A stretch of DNA of 64,000 bases. Source: Akkermansia muciniphila (lineage in GTDB: Bacteria > Verrucomicrobiota > Verrucomicrobiia > Opitutales > Opitutaceae). Position 1 is the stretch's first letter; each line of letters starts with the position of its first letter. The position numbers and the translations under genes were made by a program. The notes under the pieces were generated by a model that worked only from the letters and a program-made list of their open reading frames with translations, did not search any database and had not been told where the DNA came from. This document shows positions 40,239 to 52,490 of this stretch, one piece after another. The DNA lies in NCBI GenBank assembly GCA_945888375.1, contig CAMCZZ010000003.1:1-64000 (forward strand), written 5' to 3'.

Positions 40239-41363
40239 TCAACGCGCTTCGTAGGCTCCATCCACCCGCTTCGCCACGAGTCGCTTCAACTCCAGCATCA
40301 TCAACGTAGCCGCCAGCGCAGGACTGGCCAAACCGGTGAGCCCCACCAAGGCATCCACCGAAAGAATGGCGCCGCCGGCGAAACATCCCAGCACCCGCGC
40401 CTCGTCCGCACCGAGCCCGGTCACCCCCGGCGAAGCTGCCGCCTTGGCCGGGATGGGCGCCACCCCTGCCGGCCCGAATCCCTCCAGATAGTTCAATTCG
40501 CCCAAAACATCCTCCACCGAAGTCAATAAAGTCGCCCCGTCCCGAATGAGTTGGTGGCAACCCGCACTGCTCGGCTGGTCGATGCGCCCGGGCACCGCAA
40601 ATACGAGCCGTCCCTGCTCTCCGGCGAACTTCGCCGTGATCATCGAACCACCGCTCACATCACTCTCCACCACGATGACCGCGCGACTCATTCCCGCCAC
40701 GATACGGTTGCGCATGGCAAAAGACTGCTTATCCGCCCGCCGGCCAAAGGGGAACTCCGTGAGCACCGCTCCCCGCTCCTCGATGCGCCGATAGAGCCCT
40801 AGATTCTCCGGCGGATAGACGATATCGATGCCGTTGCCCAATACCGCTGCCGTAAGCCCGCCCGCCTCCAGGGCCCCCTCATGGGCATGACTATCGATCC
40901 CGCGCGCCAGACCGCTCACCACGCAAAAGCCCAGTCTAGCCAGATCATACCCCAGTTTCCGCGCCGTGGCCTGGCCATAAAGCGTGGTTCGCCGCGAACC
41001 CACGATGGCGACGCAAGGCGCAGCAAAGGTGTAATCACCCCGCCGATACAAACCGAGCGGCGCATCCGGCAACTCGCGCAGCAAGGGCGGGTAGCCCGGA
41101 TCGCGCAAACTGACAAAAGTGGCCCCGGCTTTCGCCAGCCGGTCCTCCTCCCTAGCCAGATCCACCAAGGCTTTCCACCCGCGCAAATTCCCGCTGATTC
41201 GCGGGCCCACTCCCTTGACCGCTTCCAGCGCCGCTGCCGGCGCCTCGAAGAGCCGCCTTGGATCATCACCAAATTCCGCCAGCAGCCGGTTCGTGGTCAC
41301 CGGCCCGATATCGGGCAACGCATTCAAGACCAAAAACGCCTGCGTGACGGTCAATTCCCCCAT
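40239..41363 (-). CDS. dprA: DNA-processing protein DprA
   Basis: Loads RecA on incoming single-stranded DNA during natural transformation. 374 residues from ATG 41363 (MGELTVTQAFLVL); the longer frame adds 62 Arg-rich residues that overlap the TPR-gene leader. An N-terminal HhH-like region (PDIGPVTTNRLLAEFG, AVKGVGPRISGNL) precedes the Rossmann core: VAIVGSRRTTLYGQATARKL, VVSGLARGIDSHAHEGAL and VFAVPGRIDQPSSAGCHQLI. The C-terminal winged-helix DML1-type domain is at ~315-374. Other competence genes are not in the window. Confidence 0.95.
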   Translation of the reverse strand: MGELTVTQAFLVLNALPDIGPVTTNRLLAEFGDDPRRLFEAPAAALEAVKGVGPRISGNLRGWKALVDLAREEDRLAKAGATFVSLRDPGYPPLLRELPDAPLGLYRRGDYTFAAPCVAIVGSRRTTLYGQATARKLGYDLARLGFCVVSGLARGIDSHAHEGALEAGGLTAAVLGNGIDIVYPPENLGLYRRIEERGAVLTEFPFGRRADKQSFAMRNRIVAGMSRAVIVVESDVSGGSMITAKFAGEQGRLVFAVPGRIDQPSSAGCHQLIRDGATLLTSVEDVLGELNYLEGFGPAGVAPIPAKAAASPGVTGLGADEARVLGCFAGGAILSVDALVGLTGLASPALAATLMMLELKRLVAKRVDGAYEAR

Positions 41364-41487
41364 TTCGCCAAGCTGTCCGGCGTTCGGCCGGGCTGGCAAT
41401 TCCGGAAACGCAGCCCCCCGAGCGAAACGGCGGGACGTCAATCGGATTGCCGTCCCCACCCTCGCCCGCTCATCCCTCAGGTCTTGT

Positions 41488-43269
41488 ATGATTCTCGAGC
41501 GCGACGACCTCAGTCCGGGCAAACTCCTGCTCCTCATCGCCGGCCTCACCGCCGCCGCTATTTTATTTTTTAATTTCCCCGCCCTTCGCCTGCGCTACCA
41601 AGCTTGGAAACAGGGCGGCACTCTCGCCCAAGCCCGGCAATTTGCAGAAGCAAACGACCTCCCGAACGCCCAACTGGCGATCAATAACGCCCTCCGCAAG
41701 GACCCCGGTAATCCCATGGTCTGGCGCTTCGCCGCCGACCTGCTGGAATACACCGGGAGCAACGATGCGGTGCGTGTGCGCCGCCGGGTCGTCGAACTGA
41801 ATCCCGCCGAAATCAGCGCTAGCTACGATCTCATCCGCACCGCCCTGCTTTTCCAAGACATCCTGACCGCCCGCGAAACCATCGAAACGCTTCCCGCTTC
41901 CGAGCAAAACACCGCCCCCTACCGCCGCGCCACCGCCGCGCTCGCCATGGCCAGCGGCCTGCCCGATCGGGCCGACACCATTCTCGACGGTCTGGTGCAG
42001 CTCGCCCCAGACGATGCGATCGCCCGTCTCGAACGCTACACCATAAGCCTCCGGCACGCCCCGGCCGGCCGCGCTGACCAGGCCCGCCAGGGACTCCGTG
42101 AGCTGGTGACTCGCAAAGAAACCCGGCTGACCGCCCTGCGTGAACTGATCTTGGACGCAGGCCGGCGCCGGGATTTTGCCAGCGCTCTGACCCACACCGA
42201 GCAACTACTCGCGGAGCCCGACCACGCTTATGTTGACCGGCTTCTCGCCGCCAACGTTCGGCTGGCCTCAGGCCGGTCCACGCTCGCTGAGTTGTTGCCC
42301 CCGCTCCAGACCGAAGCCACAGGCAAACCCGAGGAAATCCGCCAGCTGATCGGCTGGCTGCTCGCCATCGACGAGGCCTCTGCTGCGCTCGCCTGGCTGG
42401 ACAGCCTGCCGTCCGCCCTGCGCGATCGCCCGGAGGTGCTGACCGCCCGAGCCAACTGCCAGGTCGCCCTGCACGCCTGGCCGGAAGTCGCTTCACTGAT
42501 CAAACGCGGCGCCTGGGGGCCTGTCTCCGATGACGTCATTCAACTCGCCCTCGCGGCCCGGGCCCTCCGCAGTCTGGAACGCCTTTCCCTGCAACGTCCG
42601 CTGTGGGACGAGGCACTGCGGGCCTCCGCTGCCAACCTGAACGGCCTGCTCGTCCTGCACCGCCTGGCTTTGAGCTGGAACTGGCGCGCCGAGGCCCGCG
42701 CCGCCCTGCTAGTGGTGGCCGAACGCCATCCCAGCCAGCTCTGGGCGCATCAATCGCTGGCCCAGCAATTCCATGCGGCCAGAGACACCGCAGGCCTCAA
42801 AGCCGTCTTCCGACTCTGGAATGAAGCCCAACCCGGCAACACCTACGTGGAAGGCAACCGCATCTTCCTGGACCTCCTCACCCGGGGAGAGGCCGGATCC
42901 GAAGCCCTTGAAGCGGCCGCCGCCCGCCTGTGTGCCTTGCAACCTGATAACCCGTTTTTTACCACCAACCACGCCTTCGCACTCTGGCGCCTGCAGCGCT
43001 TTCCTGACGCTCTCGCCGCCCTAGAAACTCTGCCTCCCGGCCGCCTCGCCGAACCGGGACGAGCCCTTTATCACGCCCTGATTCTGGCCTCCCTAGGCCG
43101 CTCCGAGGAAGCGGAGGCCGCGATCGCCCGCACCAGCACCCAAACCGCCGCGCTGCTCCCCGAAGAACGCGGGTTGCTCGATCAGGCCCGGGTGCTCGCC
43201 CGGGCCAAAACAGCCGAGCCAGAGCCTGTCGCACCGACTGAAACCTCCCCGACCGCAGTCACCCCATGA
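41488..43269 (+). CDS. TPR-containing membrane protein of the exosortase locus
   Basis: 593 residues from ATG 41488. One membrane helix (GKLLLLIAGLTAAAILFFNF, residues ~11-30) is followed by an alpha-helical TPR-rich body: NDLPNAQLAINNALRKDPGN near residue 60, then LPDRADTILDGLVQLAPDDA, and QRFPDALAALETLPPGRLAE near the end. The tail is Pro/Thr-rich. Its stop overlaps the exosortase start by four bases (ATGA), so the two are translationally coupled and presumably work together, for example as a periplasmic scaffold for substrates. The layout echoes the protein at 17617. It is divergent from dprA. Confidence 0.8.
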   Translation: MILERDDLSPGKLLLLIAGLTAAAILFFNFPALRLRYQAWKQGGTLAQARQFAEANDLPNAQLAINNALRKDPGNPMVWRFAADLLEYTGSNDAVRVRRRVVELNPAEISASYDLIRTALLFQDILTARETIETLPASEQNTAPYRRATAALAMASGLPDRADTILDGLVQLAPDDAIARLERYTISLRHAPAGRADQARQGLRELVTRKETRLTALRELILDAGRRRDFASALTHTEQLLAEPDHAYVDRLLAANVRLASGRSTLAELLPPLQTEATGKPEEIRQLIGWLLAIDEASAALAWLDSLPSALRDRPEVLTARANCQVALHAWPEVASLIKRGAWGPVSDDVIQLALAARALRSLERLSLQRPLWDEALRASAANLNGLLVLHRLALSWNWRAEARAALLVVAERHPSQLWAHQSLAQQFHAARDTAGLKAVFRLWNEAQPGNTYVEGNRIFLDLLTRGEAGSEALEAAAARLCALQPDNPFFTTNHAFALWRLQRFPDALAALETLPPGRLAEPGRALYHALILASLGRSEEAEAAIARTSTQTAALLPEERGLLDQARVLARAKTAEPEPVAPTETSPTAVTP

Positions 43270-44819
43270 TCAAGAACCGTCCGAGGCTCGCGCTCCCGCT
43301 GGCCCTCGGAGCCCTGGCCCTCGCCCTAGGCTCGCGCTGGGCCGAAGCCTGGAACCAGCTGCCCGATCTGGAGCATGCCTGGCTCGTGCCGGCCCTCGCC
43401 GCTTACCTGGCCTGGGAACGTCGCCGCGATCAGCCCGCTCCAGGTGCCAGCCTTCGGCTGCAAACCCTCGCGTTCAGCGCTGGACTGCTGGCGGTGACCT
43501 ACGTCGCAGGCCGCGTGCTGCTCGCCCCTTTCCCTGCGTGGCCGGCGGCGCTATGGCTTTTTTCGTTGAGCGGTTGGGGCCTGGCCCTCGCCTTGATCAC
43601 TGCCTGCGCCGGACCGGGGCCCGCCCGGCACTTTGCCTTTCCTATCCTTTTCACCGGAACTGCCCTGCCGTGGTTCACCGTGATCGACGTCCACCTCATC
43701 CTGCCCCTGCGCACGGGCCTCGCCAGCGTCGCGGCAGAACTGATCCACGCACTCGGTTACCCGGCTACGGCCGAGGGCACGGTCATCACGGTGGGCCGAG
43801 GCTTGGTGGGCGTGGACGAGGCCTGCGGCGGCGTGCGTTCATTGCAAAGCGGCATTATGGTGGCCTTGTTTTTCGGGGAACTACTGCGGCTGAAAACGCC
43901 CCGCCGCCTCGCCCTGATCGCGATCGCGATCGCGATCGCCCTAGCCCTGCTGAGTAATCTGGGTCGCACCTGTTTTCTCGCTTGGCAGGCCGCCGCGCAG
44001 GGTCCCGCGGCAGCCGAACGGTGGCACGATCCAGCCGGTTGGACCCAGTTGCTAATCGCGTTAGGCGGACTTGCGCTCGTCGCTTCGTTTTGGGGCAGGT
44101 TCACCCCCGTTTCCAAAATCCAACCGGCTACCGAACCGGCCCGCAAGGACTTCACCGGCTGGCGCCCTTGCTTTGCCTTGGTCAGCCTGCTTATATTTTC
44201 GGAAATTGCAGTTTCGCTGTGGTTTAAACAACAACCAGCCCACTCGACTGCGCCCGGGGTATGGAGCGTAGCGCTGCCCGTTCAAGATCCCTCCTACGAA
44301 CCGACCCCTTTTGCCGAAAACGTGCGCAATTTGCTCCGCTGCGACGATTATCAGGCGGGTCGCTGGCAAACTCCGGAAGGAGGCCGGCGGGCTGGCTACG
44401 TGCTCACCTGGCGGCGTGGCGAGGTCGCCCGGGATATCATCGCGCTGCATAATCCCGAAATCTGCCTGCCCGGAGGCGGCAGCCGCTTGCTGGATCGCGC
44501 CCAATCAGAACTTTTAAAGCTATCCGGTGGAACGATTTTGCCCTTCTCCTCAACAACCTTTGAAGAACGCAACGGCCCCTTTTACGTTTTCTACCTTTCC
44601 TGGGATCAAACCCATGCACGCGCACTGGCTCCAGCAAATGATACCGGCTGGCGCGGTTGGTGGGCCCACCGGCTTGGCGAGGTCGCCGCGCGCCGCGCCC
44701 GGTTCGAGGCCTGCGTCATCGCCCTGGCTTACTACGATCAACCCGATGCAACTGCCGCCCGCGCCGCATTTTCGCGCGAAGCCAGCCACCTCTTCGCTTC
44801 ACCCGAAACCGATCTATAA
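43266..44819 (+). CDS. Exosortase fused to an EpsI-like domain
   Basis: Multi-pass membrane transpeptidase, 517 residues. Residues ~1-285 are the exosortase, with about eight helices. The active-site Cys lies in VDEACGGVRSLQSGIMVALF (near residue 190), Arg in LSNLGRTCFLAW (near 237) and His in AERWHDPAGWTQ (near 257), matching the Cys-Arg-His set. After a further helix (~300-320), residues ~335-505 resemble EpsI (DUF3485), including IIALHNPEICLPGGGSRLL and FYVFYLSWDQ. Exosortases cut and transfer proteins bearing PEP-CTERM tails. A hexamer repeat encodes an Ile-Ala run near 218-226. The gene directly downstream encodes a likely substrate. Confidence 0.92.
   Translation: MIKNRPRLALPLALGALALALGSRWAEAWNQLPDLEHAWLVPALAAYLAWERRRDQPAPGASLRLQTLAFSAGLLAVTYVAGRVLLAPFPAWPAALWLFSLSGWGLALALITACAGPGPARHFAFPILFTGTALPWFTVIDVHLILPLRTGLASVAAELIHALGYPATAEGTVITVGRGLVGVDEACGGVRSLQSGIMVALFFGELLRLKTPRRLALIAIAIAIALALLSNLGRTCFLAWQAAAQGPAAAERWHDPAGWTQLLIALGGLALVASFWGRFTPVSKIQPATEPARKDFTGWRPCFALVSLLIFSEIAVSLWFKQQPAHSTAPGVWSVALPVQDPSYEPTPFAENVRNLLRCDDYQAGRWQTPEGGRRAGYVLTWRRGEVARDIIALHNPEICLPGGGSRLLDRAQSELLKLSGGTILPFSSTTFEERNGPFYVFYLSWDQTHARALAPANDTGWRGWWAHRLGEVAARRARFEACVIALAYYDQPDATAARAAFSREASHLFASPETDL
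43916..43939 (+). repeat. Hexanucleotide repeat GATCGC x4 inside the exosortase gene
   Basis: Four perfect GATCGC units encode alternating Ile-Ala residues in a membrane helix of the exosortase. The unit is a multiple of three, so slippage would lengthen or shorten the helix by two residues without a frameshift. Confidence 0.85.
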
Positions 44820-44862
44820 TTTAACATTCTCCGTATTGACCAACGCACTAGCGCTACCCTGA

Positions 44863-45948
44863 TTGAGTAAAATTAAAGTAAAGAATTCACATAATCGAAC
44901 CGGTCCAACCTCCCACCCCGCGCTGGGCCTGACCTGCCTGTGTCTTCTTGCGGCAAACCCACCCCTCCACGCCCAATTCAACCCCATCGGATTCGAAGGC
45001 GCCACCATCTCGGGCATTCCCTATGCCACAAACGTAGGCATTCCGAATGGCACGCCCGTCAACACGGCTTTCAGTTACACCTTCGTCGACGGCAATAACC
45101 TCCAATCCTTCAGGAACGCTTCCGCGGGCATCGTGGATTCGGACGACGGCAGTGGCGGCGGCTCCGCCGTGCCAGATTACTATAAATCCCCGGAATTCGG
45201 TTGGCGCATCGACGGTTGGCAGACGACGGACAACACCGCCGCCAACTGGGATGTATTCAACAACGCTTACGTCGGCAACGGAGCCTCCATCGGCGAAGAC
45301 TACCCCGGAGGCGTAGCGGGTCGCCGGACCGAGCTCAGCGAAGCGATCAACATCAACCGCAATTTCTCCCCCGCCGCCGGCAATCTCGCCAAAGCCCAAG
45401 GCCTCGGTGATTTTTTCCTGGATACGCACGGCTCGTCGGGAAACACCTCGCAAATCGCCCTTGATTTCCAGGTAAACCAGGTCGACAACTTTTTTATCAC
45501 GATGGCCTTCGGCGGCCGCGATGCCGGTTCCCAAGCCACGCGCGGCTACTTCCGCCTGCTGGAAAATGGAGTCTCGATTTTCAACGGCAGCACGCAGGAT
45601 ACCCCCTACGAGGCTTGGACGCCCATCGACACGAACAACCCCTCGGCCGGAGCAGTTCGGACTGAGACCCCCGCCAGCATCGGCGTTACCCAGAAGGATT
45701 GGGAGTATTTTAAGAACACTTTCGCGGTCACGCCCGGCAATAACTACACGCTGCAAGTCCTGCTGCCCGAGGAAATCAACTTCGATTTGGCAATCGGCGC
45801 GCAGTATAGCTACACCCCTGGCATCATTACGGATTTCTCTGCCGTGCCGGAAGTCTCGGCCTACGGCCTGGCCGGATTGGCCTGTGCAACCGGCTTCGCC
45901 TTCCTCCGTCGTCGTCCCCGCCCGGCCGCAATAGCGCCCTCCGCATAG
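44863..45948 (+). CDS. Secreted protein with PEP-CTERM-like sorting tail
   Basis: 361 residues from a TTG at 44863 (no better start is available). A signal peptide (ALGLTCLCLLAANPPLHAQ) ends near residue 38. The mature part is rich in Asn, Gly, Ser and Thr with repeated beta-type motifs and no recognised enzyme domain. The C-terminus has the tripartite sorting layout: VPEVSAYG, a hydrophobic stretch (LAGLACATGFAFL) and an Arg cluster (RRRPRP), followed by a short extra tail. The motif reads Pro-Glu-Val where Pro-Glu-Pro is usual. Forty-three bases after the exosortase stop, it is the evident local substrate. Confidence 0.82.
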   Translation: MSKIKVKNSHNRTGPTSHPALGLTCLCLLAANPPLHAQFNPIGFEGATISGIPYATNVGIPNGTPVNTAFSYTFVDGNNLQSFRNASAGIVDSDDGSGGGSAVPDYYKSPEFGWRIDGWQTTDNTAANWDVFNNAYVGNGASIGEDYPGGVAGRRTELSEAININRNFSPAAGNLAKAQGLGDFFLDTHGSSGNTSQIALDFQVNQVDNFFITMAFGGRDAGSQATRGYFRLLENGVSIFNGSTQDTPYEAWTPIDTNNPSAGAVRTETPASIGVTQKDWEYFKNTFAVTPGNNYTLQVLLPEEINFDLAIGAQYSYTPGIITDFSAVPEVSAYGLAGLACATGFAFLRRRPRPAAIAPSA

Positions 45949-46130: not shown

Positions 46131-46526
46131 TTAGGCTCCGCGCACCAGCGCGGCCACCGCCAGCGCGGTGGTTTCGGTATGACTAAGCGTCAGAAGCACC
46201 CCGGCCGCCCCGCGCGCCGCCAGCAAGGCCTCGCCCCGGGCGTCAAGTTTCACCCCGGGCGCGCCCCGCGCGTCATGAACGACTTCAATCGATTTCCAGC
46301 CTAACTCCGCACCTATGCCGGTCCCGAAGGCTTTCGCGACCGCCTCCTTGGCTGCGAAACGCGCCGCGAGAAACGGCGCCGGATCACGCATGCCGAGACA
46401 GTAGCCGCGCTCCGCCTCCGTGAAGGTGAAATCCAGAAAGCGCTCCCCCTGCCGTTCCCAAACGCCCCGCACGCGGGCGACGTCGCAGAGATCGCAGCCG
46501 AGACCAAGCACATGTCCAGAGATCAT
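46131..46526 (-). CDS. acpS: Holo-[acyl-carrier-protein] synthase
   Basis: Transfers 4'-phosphopantetheine from CoA to apo-ACP. 131 residues with the two AcpS signatures: GLGCDLCDVARVRGVW (Asp near residue 12) and ARFAAKEAVAKAFGTGIG (Glu near 63), both magnesium ligands. It lies ten bases after pdxJ on the same strand. The pdxJ-acpS pairing is widely conserved. Confidence 0.95.
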   Translation of the reverse strand: MISGHVLGLGCDLCDVARVRGVWERQGERFLDFTFTEAERGYCLGMRDPAPFLAARFAAKEAVAKAFGTGIGAELGWKSIEVVHDARGAPGVKLDARGEALLAARGAAGVLLTLSHTETTALAVAALVRGA

Positions 46527-46536
46527 CGCAAAATCA

Positions 46537-47286
46537 TCAACCGGCAGGGTTCATCCGCGCCTTCATCTCCCGCACCGCCTCCCCGATCCCGGTCGAGAGC
46601 GCGCGGCTGATGATGCTGTGGCCGATGTTTAACTCATGCACGCCGGGCAGCGTGCGAATCTCGGCGACGTTGACATAGTTGATCCCGTGACCCGCGTTGA
46701 CCACGAGACCAGCAGCGTGGGCCTGCCGCGCCCCGGCAACTAACCGGGCGAACTCCTCGCCTCTGCGCGGACCATGCCAGGCGTTGGCCCAGGCACCGGT
46801 ATGAAGCTCGATCCACGGCGCCCTCAGCTCTGCCGCCGCGTCGATCTGGACCGGGTCGGCATCAATGAAGAGACTCACCAGGATGCCGGCCGCGCGCATC
46901 GCCTCACAGACCGCGCGCACCCGGTCGCGCTGGCCGGCGACATCCAGCCCGCCCTCGGTGGAAATCTCCTCGCGACTCTCGGGCACCAGACACACCGACT
47001 CGGGCCGCACCTTGAGGGCGAAATCCGTCATCGCCGGCGTGCAAGCCATTTCAAGGTTGATGCGGGTCCGGGCGACCTCGCGCAGGCGCCAGACATCGCG
47101 TTCCTGAATATGCCGACGGTCCTCGCGGAGGTGAATGGTGATGCCATCCGCACCCGCCCGCTCAGCGAGGGTGGCGAGATCCACCGGATCAGGCTCCACC
47201 GGACCGCCGACGGTCGCAGCATAGCCCCGATAACGCGCCTGCCGCACCGTCGCAGCATGGTCGATGTTGACGCCAAGGAGTATCAT
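46537..47286 (-). CDS. pdxJ: Pyridoxine 5'-phosphate synthase
   Basis: Final ring-closing step of the DXP-dependent vitamin B6 route. 249 residues from ATG 47286; the longer frame is discarded because the family starts [16 protein letters not shown]. Further signatures are [20 protein letters not shown] (~44-63), [34 protein letters not shown] and [12 protein letters not shown], then [14 protein letters not shown] near the end. Co-directional with acpS. It supplies PLP, used here by ThrC, HisC and the desulfurase. Confidence 0.97.
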
Positions 47287-47371
47287 GGAGCCCATCCTTG
47301 ACCGACGGACGGCGGCGGGAAAGAAGGGATTTCGCTTTCGCCCCGCCCGCCGGAGTCTTTGCTGGGGCCAG

Positions 47372-48097
47372 ATGAAGCCCGCGCCCGCCCCCAAGGAGAA
47401 TCTGCTGCTCAACCTGGTCTGCACCATCGCGGTGCCGTCGCTGGTCCTCTCCAAACTAAGCGACCCCGCCCGCCTAGGGCCGGAGCTGGCGCTGGTAGTG
47501 GCGCTCGCTTTCCCCCTTTACTACGGGGTCTGGGATTTCGCCAAGCGGCGAAAGTTCAACTTTGTCGCGGGCATCGGCTTCACCAGCACCCTGCTGACCG
47601 GCGGCTTCGCCCTGGCCAAGGCCGACGGCATCTGGTTCGCGGTGAAGGAAGCCTCGGTGCCGGCGGTGATCGGGTTGATGGTGCTGCTTTCGACCAAGTC
47701 CAAACGTCCGCTGATCCGGGAGTTTATCTTCAATGACCAGGTTATCGACATCGCCCGGGTGGACGCCGCGCTGGAGGCCCACGGGGCGCGGCCGGCCTTC
47801 GAAAAACTGCTCGCCGTCGCCGGCCGACGGGTCACCGCGTCGTTTTTCCTCAGCGCGATCCTGAACTTCGTGCTCGCCCGCTGGTTCCTGACCGCGCCGA
47901 CCGGCTCCAAAGAGTTCAATCAACAGCTGGGGAGCATGAATGCATGGAGCTGGGCCGTGATCGTGATCCCCAGCACGGGCATGATGATGTGGGCGCTGTG
48001 GGGCGTGCTCGGCGGGGTAAAAAAACTCACCGGACTAAGTCTGGAGGAGATCATGCATGCGCCCGAAAAACCCGCCCGTCCGCCGGCCGGCGGTTGA
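47372..48097 (+). CDS. VC0807-like integral membrane protein
   Basis: 241 residues from ATG 47372, with about five hydrophobic segments, including [35 protein letters not shown] and [16 protein letters not shown]. The mixed pattern, a central Phe/Asn-rich stretch ([14 protein letters not shown]) and the C-terminal [20 protein letters not shown] match the VC0807 family of small inner-membrane proteins with unknown function. It is divergent from pdxJ and 21 bp before the ThiF-like gene. Confidence 0.75.
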
Positions 48098-52134: not shown

Positions 52135-52490
52135 TGGTGGAGGTGGCGGGAGTTGAACCCGCGTGCCCCTGGCCTTCGCGTATGGCGTCTACCCTTATAG
52201 TGCCGTTTTAAATTCGCCGGCGTCTCGCGGCTGCACGCGCAAGGACGCAAACTAACCCCCGGATCGAAGATACGGCGCCCACACCGCGGGTGGCTCTGGG
52301 CGCTATGTCCACTGTCGTCGATCACGTCAGCTAGTGGACGTCACTGGGCGATCGTCACAGCACTTAGGCTGCGAGGGGCATTTCTTCGAAGGTGCCGTTT
52401 ATTTTTGTGTGCAGGAGTTTATAACGCGAGGCCTACACTCGCGAAGGGCGGCCAAACACTCCAACCAAGGGTCGAATCCAGAACACCCCC
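52135..52490 (-). ncRNA. ssrA: Transfer-messenger RNA (tmRNA)
   Basis: 356-nt tmRNA rescuing stalled ribosomes with SmpB. The 5' end GGGGGTGTTCTGGATTCGACC and the 3' end CGGGTTCAACTCCCGCC...ACCTCCACCA form the tRNA-Ala-like domain; the acceptor pairing GGGGGTG/CACCTCC and encoded CCA are visible. The tag frame ends in codons for NGTFEEMPLAA then TAA (near 52370-52400), the usual -LAA degron. The resume codon is not certain: upstream in that frame are HTKI codons with no obvious Ala start. One-piece form (not permuted). Confidence 0.95.

Follow-up and report, generated by a model that had tools for sequence, protein, structure and literature searches.

A tetratricopeptide repeat protein gene, an exosortase-EpsI fusion gene and a PEP-CTERM-like cargo gene form a compact candidate sorting cassette in Opitutaceae

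The locus described here lies in a 64,000-nucleotide stretch, referred to as the window, of a genome deposited as Akkermansia muciniphila and placed here in Opitutaceae (GenBank assembly GCA_945888375.1, contig CAMCZZ010000003.1; source genome G000, window G000:C3:1-64000). Three plus-strand genes between minus-strand dprA and acpS encode a tetratricopeptide repeat (TPR) protein, a fusion of an exosortase with an EpsI-like half, and a secreted protein, hereafter the cargo (Table 1). As the initial annotation had described, the gene for the one-helix TPR protein overlaps the exosortase start by four bases (ATGA, shared between the TPR stop and the exosortase ATG at 43266), and the gene for a secreted protein with a VPEVSAYG-hydrophobic-Arg tail comes next. 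All gene calls and start codons in the analysis are mechanical; G and L numbers are our labels for family genomes and fetched loci, respectively. Both the gene order and the four-base overlap are kept in the nearest relative that has the module (G006, locus L005), and the TPR-exosortase-cargo order, with the overlap absent, is kept in G251 (L154). Because of this recurrence the module is more than a chance arrangement. The TPR-exosortase order was expected to be conserved in related genomes, and beyond these two it recurs in many Opitutaceae loci.

The product of the middle gene belongs to the exosortase/archaeosortase superfamily, scoring above the cut-offs of both PF09721 and TIGR04178. Assignment below that level gave lower scores: the EpsH subfamily model TIGR02602 reached 82.6 bits against a cut-off of 105.55, and all class-specific exosortase models listed for the fusion, XrtD included, scored far under their cut-offs. 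The VPLPA class suggested at the outset was rejected. TIGR04152 (XrtD/VPLPA-CTERM), a model of 486 positions, is the best-scoring named exosortase model and aligns along most of the fusion, but the score was 106.8 bits against a cut-off of 400, and the tail of the neighbouring protein reads VPEVSAYG, with VPEA or VPEP in relatives, rather than VPLPA.

An alignment was built from 49 of 54 collected exosortase-family proteins, five short or partial ones being excluded. The Cys, Arg and His motifs described at the outset are all present: C187 (DEAC187GG), R234 (NLGR234) and H254 (WH254D) are invariant in 49/49 sequences, and these residues are presumed to be catalytic, as in other exosortases and archaeosortases. 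In the EpsI-like C-terminal half the motif at residues 395-405 is conserved in the alignment (H395 47/48, P397 49/49, C400 47/48, G405 47/47). PF11984 (EpsI) scored 25.0 bits, just below its cut-off of 26.1; TIGR02914 (EpsI) gave no match for the fusion up to E=1. The HxPxxC within this motif is presumably the mark of the EpsI family. Such a half is less unusual than first supposed, as the motif occurs in nearly all aligned fusion exosortases, and Haft et al. (2006) describe an EpsI-like region fused to the exosortase in some members (PMC1569441).

An AlphaFold2 model of the fusion built from 12 sequences had a mean predicted local distance difference test score (pLDDT) of 79.4 and consists of a helical part, a further long helix (299-321) and then an alpha/beta domain. 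Foldseek returned no match for the exosortase model at E <= 0.001, and the exosortase profile had a single match among PDB sequences, at E 1.8. In a second structural search approximately residues 332-513 matched DcrB (Z 8.2), the Eag chaperone SciW (Z 6.4-6.7), LpqN (Z 6.4), PsbP-titled entries (Z 5.7-5.9) and photosystem chains (Z up to 7.0), a Z range that is common according to the tool. These matches are suggestive of a DcrB/SciW-Eag/PsbP fold group for the modelled EpsI-like half. Separately, a perfect GATCGC x 4 repeat (window 43916-43939) lies within a membrane helix of the exosortase, where it encodes IAIAIAIA. Since the aligned exosortases are two residues shorter at this site, copies of this in-frame repeat unit may be gained or lost with the frame unbroken.

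The TPR protein has one N-terminal hydrophobic helix at about residues 13-33, read from the sequence, followed by a TPR region that matches TPR_19. No Cys lipobox was seen by eye at its N-terminus, and the protein is predicted to be anchored in the inner membrane and to face the periplasm. The best named model was PrsT (TIGR02917), at 31.1 bits against a cut-off of 312.2, with weaker matches to PgaA/BcsC. The N-terminus MILERDDLSP is common to the proteins of the window, G006, G251 and G252, and its conservation supports the ATG start at 41488.

The cargo frame begins with a TTG at 44863. Its N-terminus is signal-like and ends in AQ, as read without a predictor, and its C-terminus combines a PE motif, a hydrophobic helix and a basic cluster (VPEVSAYG-hydrophobic-RRRPRP). 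The mature domain gave no Pfam match up to E=1, the cargo profile had no match among PDB sequences, and an AlphaFold model from two sequences had a pLDDT of 32.2. Relatives of this cargo are rare, being found in 5 of the 251 other family genomes searched, or 6/252 when the source genome is counted, with overall identities of 80% to G006 and 66% to G251. In five of the six a TPR gene adjoins the window-type cargo, three times with an exosortase and twice without; the sixth, G252, is represented by a 2.6-kb stretch. P329 and E330 are identical in five aligned members of the family, the third motif position being V, A or P, and the orthologous tail in G256 scored 32.7 bits against the PEP-CTERM model TIGR02595. 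The possibility that the tail motif is private to this cassette was rejected, given this variation at the third position and a consistent PEV in another cargo family (22/25).

Natural variants of the locus separate the three genes. In genus g42 the content of a single site between phosphoglycerate mutase (pgm) and hemH, flanks that G251 and G256 share, differs between species: TPR-exosortase-cargo in G251, TPR-cargo-TPR in G256. G055 has the exosortase-free order of G256, with matching flank frames. Because the TPR gene and the orthologous cargo persist without an exosortase in G055 and G256, the exosortase is optional, and TPR plus cargo form the stable unit. In the same genus as the source genome, dprA directly adjoins acpS in G011 and G014, which lack the block. 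The G011 gap keeps a remnant of the TPR 5' end (local score 66, against a maximum of 32.5 in 300 shuffles), whereas comparison with the cargo 3' end was not significant (28 against a shuffle score of 33), and in the G014 gap none of the three genes matched above shuffles. Since G011 retains this remnant, a recent insertion between dprA and acpS was thought unlikely, and the module was probably lost in G011 rather than recently gained in the source genome. The missing blocks and the TPR scrap could also be read as signs that the window locus is itself a relic, a once active system now in decay and without function. We regard this as very improbable, as the window frames are intact, the active site is conserved and the cargo remains similar to those of G006 and G251.

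Across the family, a TPR gene, a fusion exosortase and a gene with a PE-motif tail recur together in many loci. Among the loci of the first set, fusion exosortases have a neighbouring TPR gene in two settings. In one the TPR protein has about 860 residues, and of these loci L077 was identified as a polysaccharide locus; the other is compact, with a TPR protein of about 600 residues and a PE-tail gene. In an exosortase tree of 49 rows the enzymes of compact loci form one clade of 15 with moderate support (92/83), and a PE-tail gene adjoins the TPR/exosortase unit in 13 of these 15. The two exceptions are the third copy in L060, where the fetched stretch ends, and L049, a 7.6-kb contig that has none. 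TPR-exosortase overlaps of 1-4 bases, by mechanical starts, also occur in L048, L050, L053, L057 and L058. In L060 (5418-19901, genome G034) three modules stand in tandem, and their exosortase and TPR-cargo genes are divergent.

The first set was picked partly by exosortase homology, and 21 of its 26 TPR genes have a PE-tail neighbour. A held-out set consisted of 80 loci chosen by TPR match alone (E <= 1e-15), blind to cargo, from family genomes outside the first set, which takes in all such listed matches but one (G182:C1:3824945) and yields 82 counted TPR genes in 79 loci. TPR types were assigned by the best BLAST query among seven, and the main count left out the L063-like type and required 2 kb or more of sequence on each side of the TPR gene. 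In 47/53 cases a PE-tail gene lies no more than 1 kb from the TPR(/exosortase) unit, and in 43/53 no more than 300 bp; with incompletely flanked loci included the count is 58/75. As the held-out loci span 19 genera, the 47/53 does not represent 53 independent events. PE-tail genes numbered 65 in 494 kb near the anchors against 2 in 185 kb beyond 3.5 kb, under a rule that overlooks tails whose helix contains a charged residue, such as one cargo of L060. The presence of an exosortase within 600 bp varies by TPR type, from 20/24 TPR genes of the two window-like types, 7/9 L058-like and 5/6 L140-like to 2/23 L133-like and 0/13 L136-like. The TPR gene thus pairs more constantly with cargo than with exosortase. 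A separate, widespread pair joins an L133-type TPR gene to a gene for a protein of about 300 residues (L133, L137, L141, L142, L146 and many of L203-L230), with a PEV tail in 22/25 and no local exosortase in the unit in 24/25. L133-type matches in G005:C55 and G117:C41 carry in-frame stop codons and are apparent decayed copies.

The cargoes themselves are diverse. By BLAST, 82 TPR-adjacent cargo genes from both sets fell into 12 families, and the TPR type matched the cargo family in 64 of 78 cases, against a permutation maximum of 36 in 2000 (families of two or more members were counted, leaving out four single-member families). The first-set TPR tree likewise groups with cargo families. In profile-profile comparison of seven cargo sets all hhalign probabilities were <= 6, which indicates that the cargoes recurring beside related TPR proteins are unrelated to one another. 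One cargo family holds a choice-of-anchor A/ice-binding-like adhesive domain (TIGR04215, 80.9 bits against a cut-off of 29; PF20597, 102.3 against 23.8). In L060, this adhesive domain is matched by one cargo, to which a second cargo is 49% identical.

Given the polysaccharide setting of some relatives, the TPR protein might instead be a polysaccharide-side component of the PrsT/BcsC kind, with the cargo merely a neighbour serving the same matrix. TPR relatives of about 860 residues do sit with fusion exosortases, and export or ligase genes stand beside fusion exosortases in L077 (Poly_export and an ATPase) and L074 (Wzy_C, SLBB/Poly_export and an ATPase adjoining a related exosortase). These two are the only loci identified by models as polysaccharide loci; a scan of three neighbours from L056 and L063 gave no clear answer. 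PrsT is moreover the best named model for the TPR protein, and flocs are lost in Aquincola prsT mutants (PMC9850573). Nevertheless, we consider this explanation quite unlikely for the window locus. No polysaccharide synthesis or export gene was found among ten genes flanking six compact loci, which include enolase, Ku, methionine sulfoxide reductase, TatD and rhamnogalacturonan lyase, or among the window neighbours tested by profile models, and particular TPR types go with particular cargo families. L063-like TPR genes, the polysaccharide-operon type, had a PE-tail gene within 1 kb in 0/6 cases and within 1.2 kb in 2/6, so these too are linked to cargo, more loosely. In L187, L189, L233 and L055 a VPEPSTYA-tailed gene (about 230 residues) lies about 1.1 kb from an L063-like TPR gene.

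The source genome holds further candidate enzymes and targets. Four exosortase-family genes are present, that of the window included, and TIGR02595 has 34 matches up to E=10, of which 27 are above the cut-off, the window cargo being among the remainder. The tails of 30 of the 33 other matches were read, the three lowest lying outside this reading, and all are [IV]PEP; both the model and the regular expression used favour PEP. At its third motif residue the window tail thus departs from this pool. Same-genus genomes in which the window TPR protein has no match keep PEP-CTERM proteins (at E <= 0.02, 9 in G005, 17 in G010, 20 in G011, 66 in G013 and 19 in G014, with 24 in the source genome), and for this reason the general pool is independent of the window module. 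A second exosortase-EpsI fusion of the source genome (G000:C5:118158; L069 9848-11533), downstream of a gene read as recR-like, is a candidate processor of this pool.

These observations bear on whether the pairing is strictly one-to-one, such that the window exosortase processes only the window cargo and the cargo is processed by it alone. The adjacency, gene order and four-base overlap would fit such exclusivity, dedicated enzyme-target neighbours are known for rhombosortase (PMC3237569), and five same-genus genomes maintain the general pool with no need for the window enzyme. We nonetheless judge it unlikely. In G055 and G256 the orthologous cargo has no exosortase beside it, the source genome has three other exosortase-family genes, and tails of the window-cargo family carry V, A or P despite the difference from the genome pool. 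The cargo is also not the only target in its genome, given the 30 other PEP tails. A dedicated substrate in the strict sense, as first proposed, was therefore not borne out, and cross-processing would be possible. The proposal of a self-contained module fared better in part: the three genes recur together, their flanks are not polysaccharide genes and the block is absent as such from G011 and G014, but the persistence of TPR and cargo without the exosortase in G055 and G256 argues against self-containment. Overall, the locus is better described as a TPR-cargo unit to which an exosortase is an optional addition than as a self-contained system with a dedicated substrate.

We therefore propose, with a probability of about 0.6, that the three genes make up a compact cassette for sorting a surface protein, in which the TPR protein holds the cargo at an exosortase for removal of the tail. 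After export by Sec, the cargo would stay in the inner membrane, retained through the helix and arginines at its C-terminus. In the periplasm the cargo or its tail would then be bound by the membrane-anchored TPR protein and presented to an exosortase, the adjacent fusion enzyme being the likeliest one for the window cargo. C187 would attack at the PE motif, the tail would be removed, and the mature cargo would be handed on to an acceptor. Where the frequent but dispensable local exosortase is missing, another cellular exosortase would take over. The earlier designation of the TPR protein as a scaffold had gene linkage as its sole basis and is not retained as written.

Several results weigh against this proposal. 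The window tail scored 13.2 bits against TIGR02595, below the cut-off of 16. No promoter-like site was found at the locus by consensus, so co-transcription is only presumed. Six of the 53 held-out TPR genes had no detected cargo within 1 kb, and the contrast with the polysaccharide-operon type hinges on that limit, given the 2/6 at 1.2 kb. The match of TPR type with cargo family is expected from joint inheritance of neighbours without any binding. Furthermore, among the part of the listed TPR matches that was fetched from other families of the class, a homologous TPR gene has a fusion exosortase no more than 600 bp away in 16/40 loci, while only 5/43 TPR genes have a PE-tail gene within 1 kb, a count that leaves out PEM tails (L274, L276, L309) and one PEA tail (L275) near a TPR gene. 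The TPR protein's older partner may thus be the enzyme. Because outside the family the TPR gene adjoins an exosortase more often than a cargo, the TPR-exosortase link looks older, and the TPR-cargo pairing looks mainly an Opitutaceae development. The PEM tails in question read VPEMAS, VPEMSA and VPEMST. Finally, in Aquincola the TPR gene prsT and the PEP-CTERM gene pepA are not co-regulated (PMC9850573).

Comparison with described systems places the cassette among known parts. Like the PEP-CTERM/EpsH system (PMC1569441), it has an exosortase, there with some EpsI-like fusions, and a cargo tail made up of a PE motif, a helix and a basic cluster. In that account epsH nearly always lies in a polysaccharide gene setting, and most cargo genes are single-gene operons at other sites, whereas here enzyme, TPR protein and one cargo stand together, away from polysaccharide genes among the neighbours tested. 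The Aquincola pair (PMC9850573) offers a precedent in that a TPR gene required for flocs, prsT, stands beside an upstream PEP-CTERM gene, pepA, which is involved in the same phenotype. In contrast, PrsT belongs to a lipoprotein family with an 899-position model, while the window protein is a one-helix protein of about 600 residues scoring far below that model; furthermore, TPR genes here are often joined to their own exosortase, and the TPR relatives are paired with 12 cargo families. The rhombosortase/GlyGly-CTERM system (PMC3237569) also places a sorting enzyme next to a single target, but it uses another protease family and has a single target per genome.

Fusion exosortases, TPR partners and adjacent targets are thus each already known, and what is new is the pattern, a TPR and PE-tail cargo pairing that recurs with unrelated cargoes and in which the exosortase is optional. 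A literature search found no description of a TPR/exosortase/cargo cassette in Verrucomicrobia, with an earlier one possible in a 2011 J Bacteriol survey of archaeosortases and exosortases. To our knowledge, target recognition by exosortases and the role of linked TPR proteins are open questions. The family offers a natural experiment on these points: its related TPR proteins go with 12 cargo families, in some cases beside a local exosortase and in others not, and several pairs can occur in one genome. As one site has the exosortase in one species and lacks it in others, specificity in the adaptor or in the enzyme becomes testable. The pairing also provides a rule for finding exosortase cargo whose tail scores below the model cut-off, as in the window. 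The interest would be higher if the TPR protein proves to be a cargo-specific adaptor. A bolder extension, which we hold only tentatively and think rather doubtful as a whole, is that in Opitutaceae each TPR protein of about 600 residues is the private receptor of one PEP-CTERM cargo, with specificity residing in the TPR-cargo pair and exosortases partly interchangeable. If the DcrB/PsbP/Eag-like fold of the EpsI-like half is real, this half could hold the hydrophobic tail in the way that transmembrane segments are held by Eag chaperones.

Table 1. Positions in the window of the cassette genes, their presumed functional sites and the flanking genes
Feature	Position	Strand	Basis
TPR gene, 593 aa	41488..43269	+	Open reading frame; TPR_19 28.9 bits (cut-off 25); conserved N-terminus
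Exosortase-EpsI fusion, 517 aa	43266..44819	+	PF09721 141.4 bits (cut-off 25.7); TIGR04178 50.5 bits (cut-off 23); AlphaFold2
C187 codon (DEACGG), presumed catalytic Cys	43824..43826	+	Alignment 49/49
R234 codon (NLGR), presumed catalytic	43965..43967	+	Alignment 49/49
H254 codon (WHD), presumed catalytic	44025..44027	+	Alignment 49/49
EpsI-like half, residues 332-513, HxPxxC at 395-400	44259..44804	+	PF11984 25.0 bits; motif conservation; structural matches
Cargo gene (SUB), 361 aa	44863..45948	+	Open reading frame; no Pfam match up to E=1; relatives in family
C-terminal sorting tail PEVSAYG-hydrophobic-RRRPRP, residues 329-361	45847..45945	+	Sequence; aligned relatives
dprA, left flank	40239..41549	-	TIGR00732 220.3 bits; G006 frame
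acpS, right flank	46131..46526	-	Profile match
pdxJ, beyond acpS	46537-47454		Profile match

With the mechanical GTG start at 41549, the dprA frame would overlap the TPR start. The G006 dprA frame begins 50 residues later, and the true start is therefore probably near 41399. Elsewhere in the window, a tmRNA is encoded on the minus strand at 52135-52490, with the tag peptide GTFEEMPLAA.

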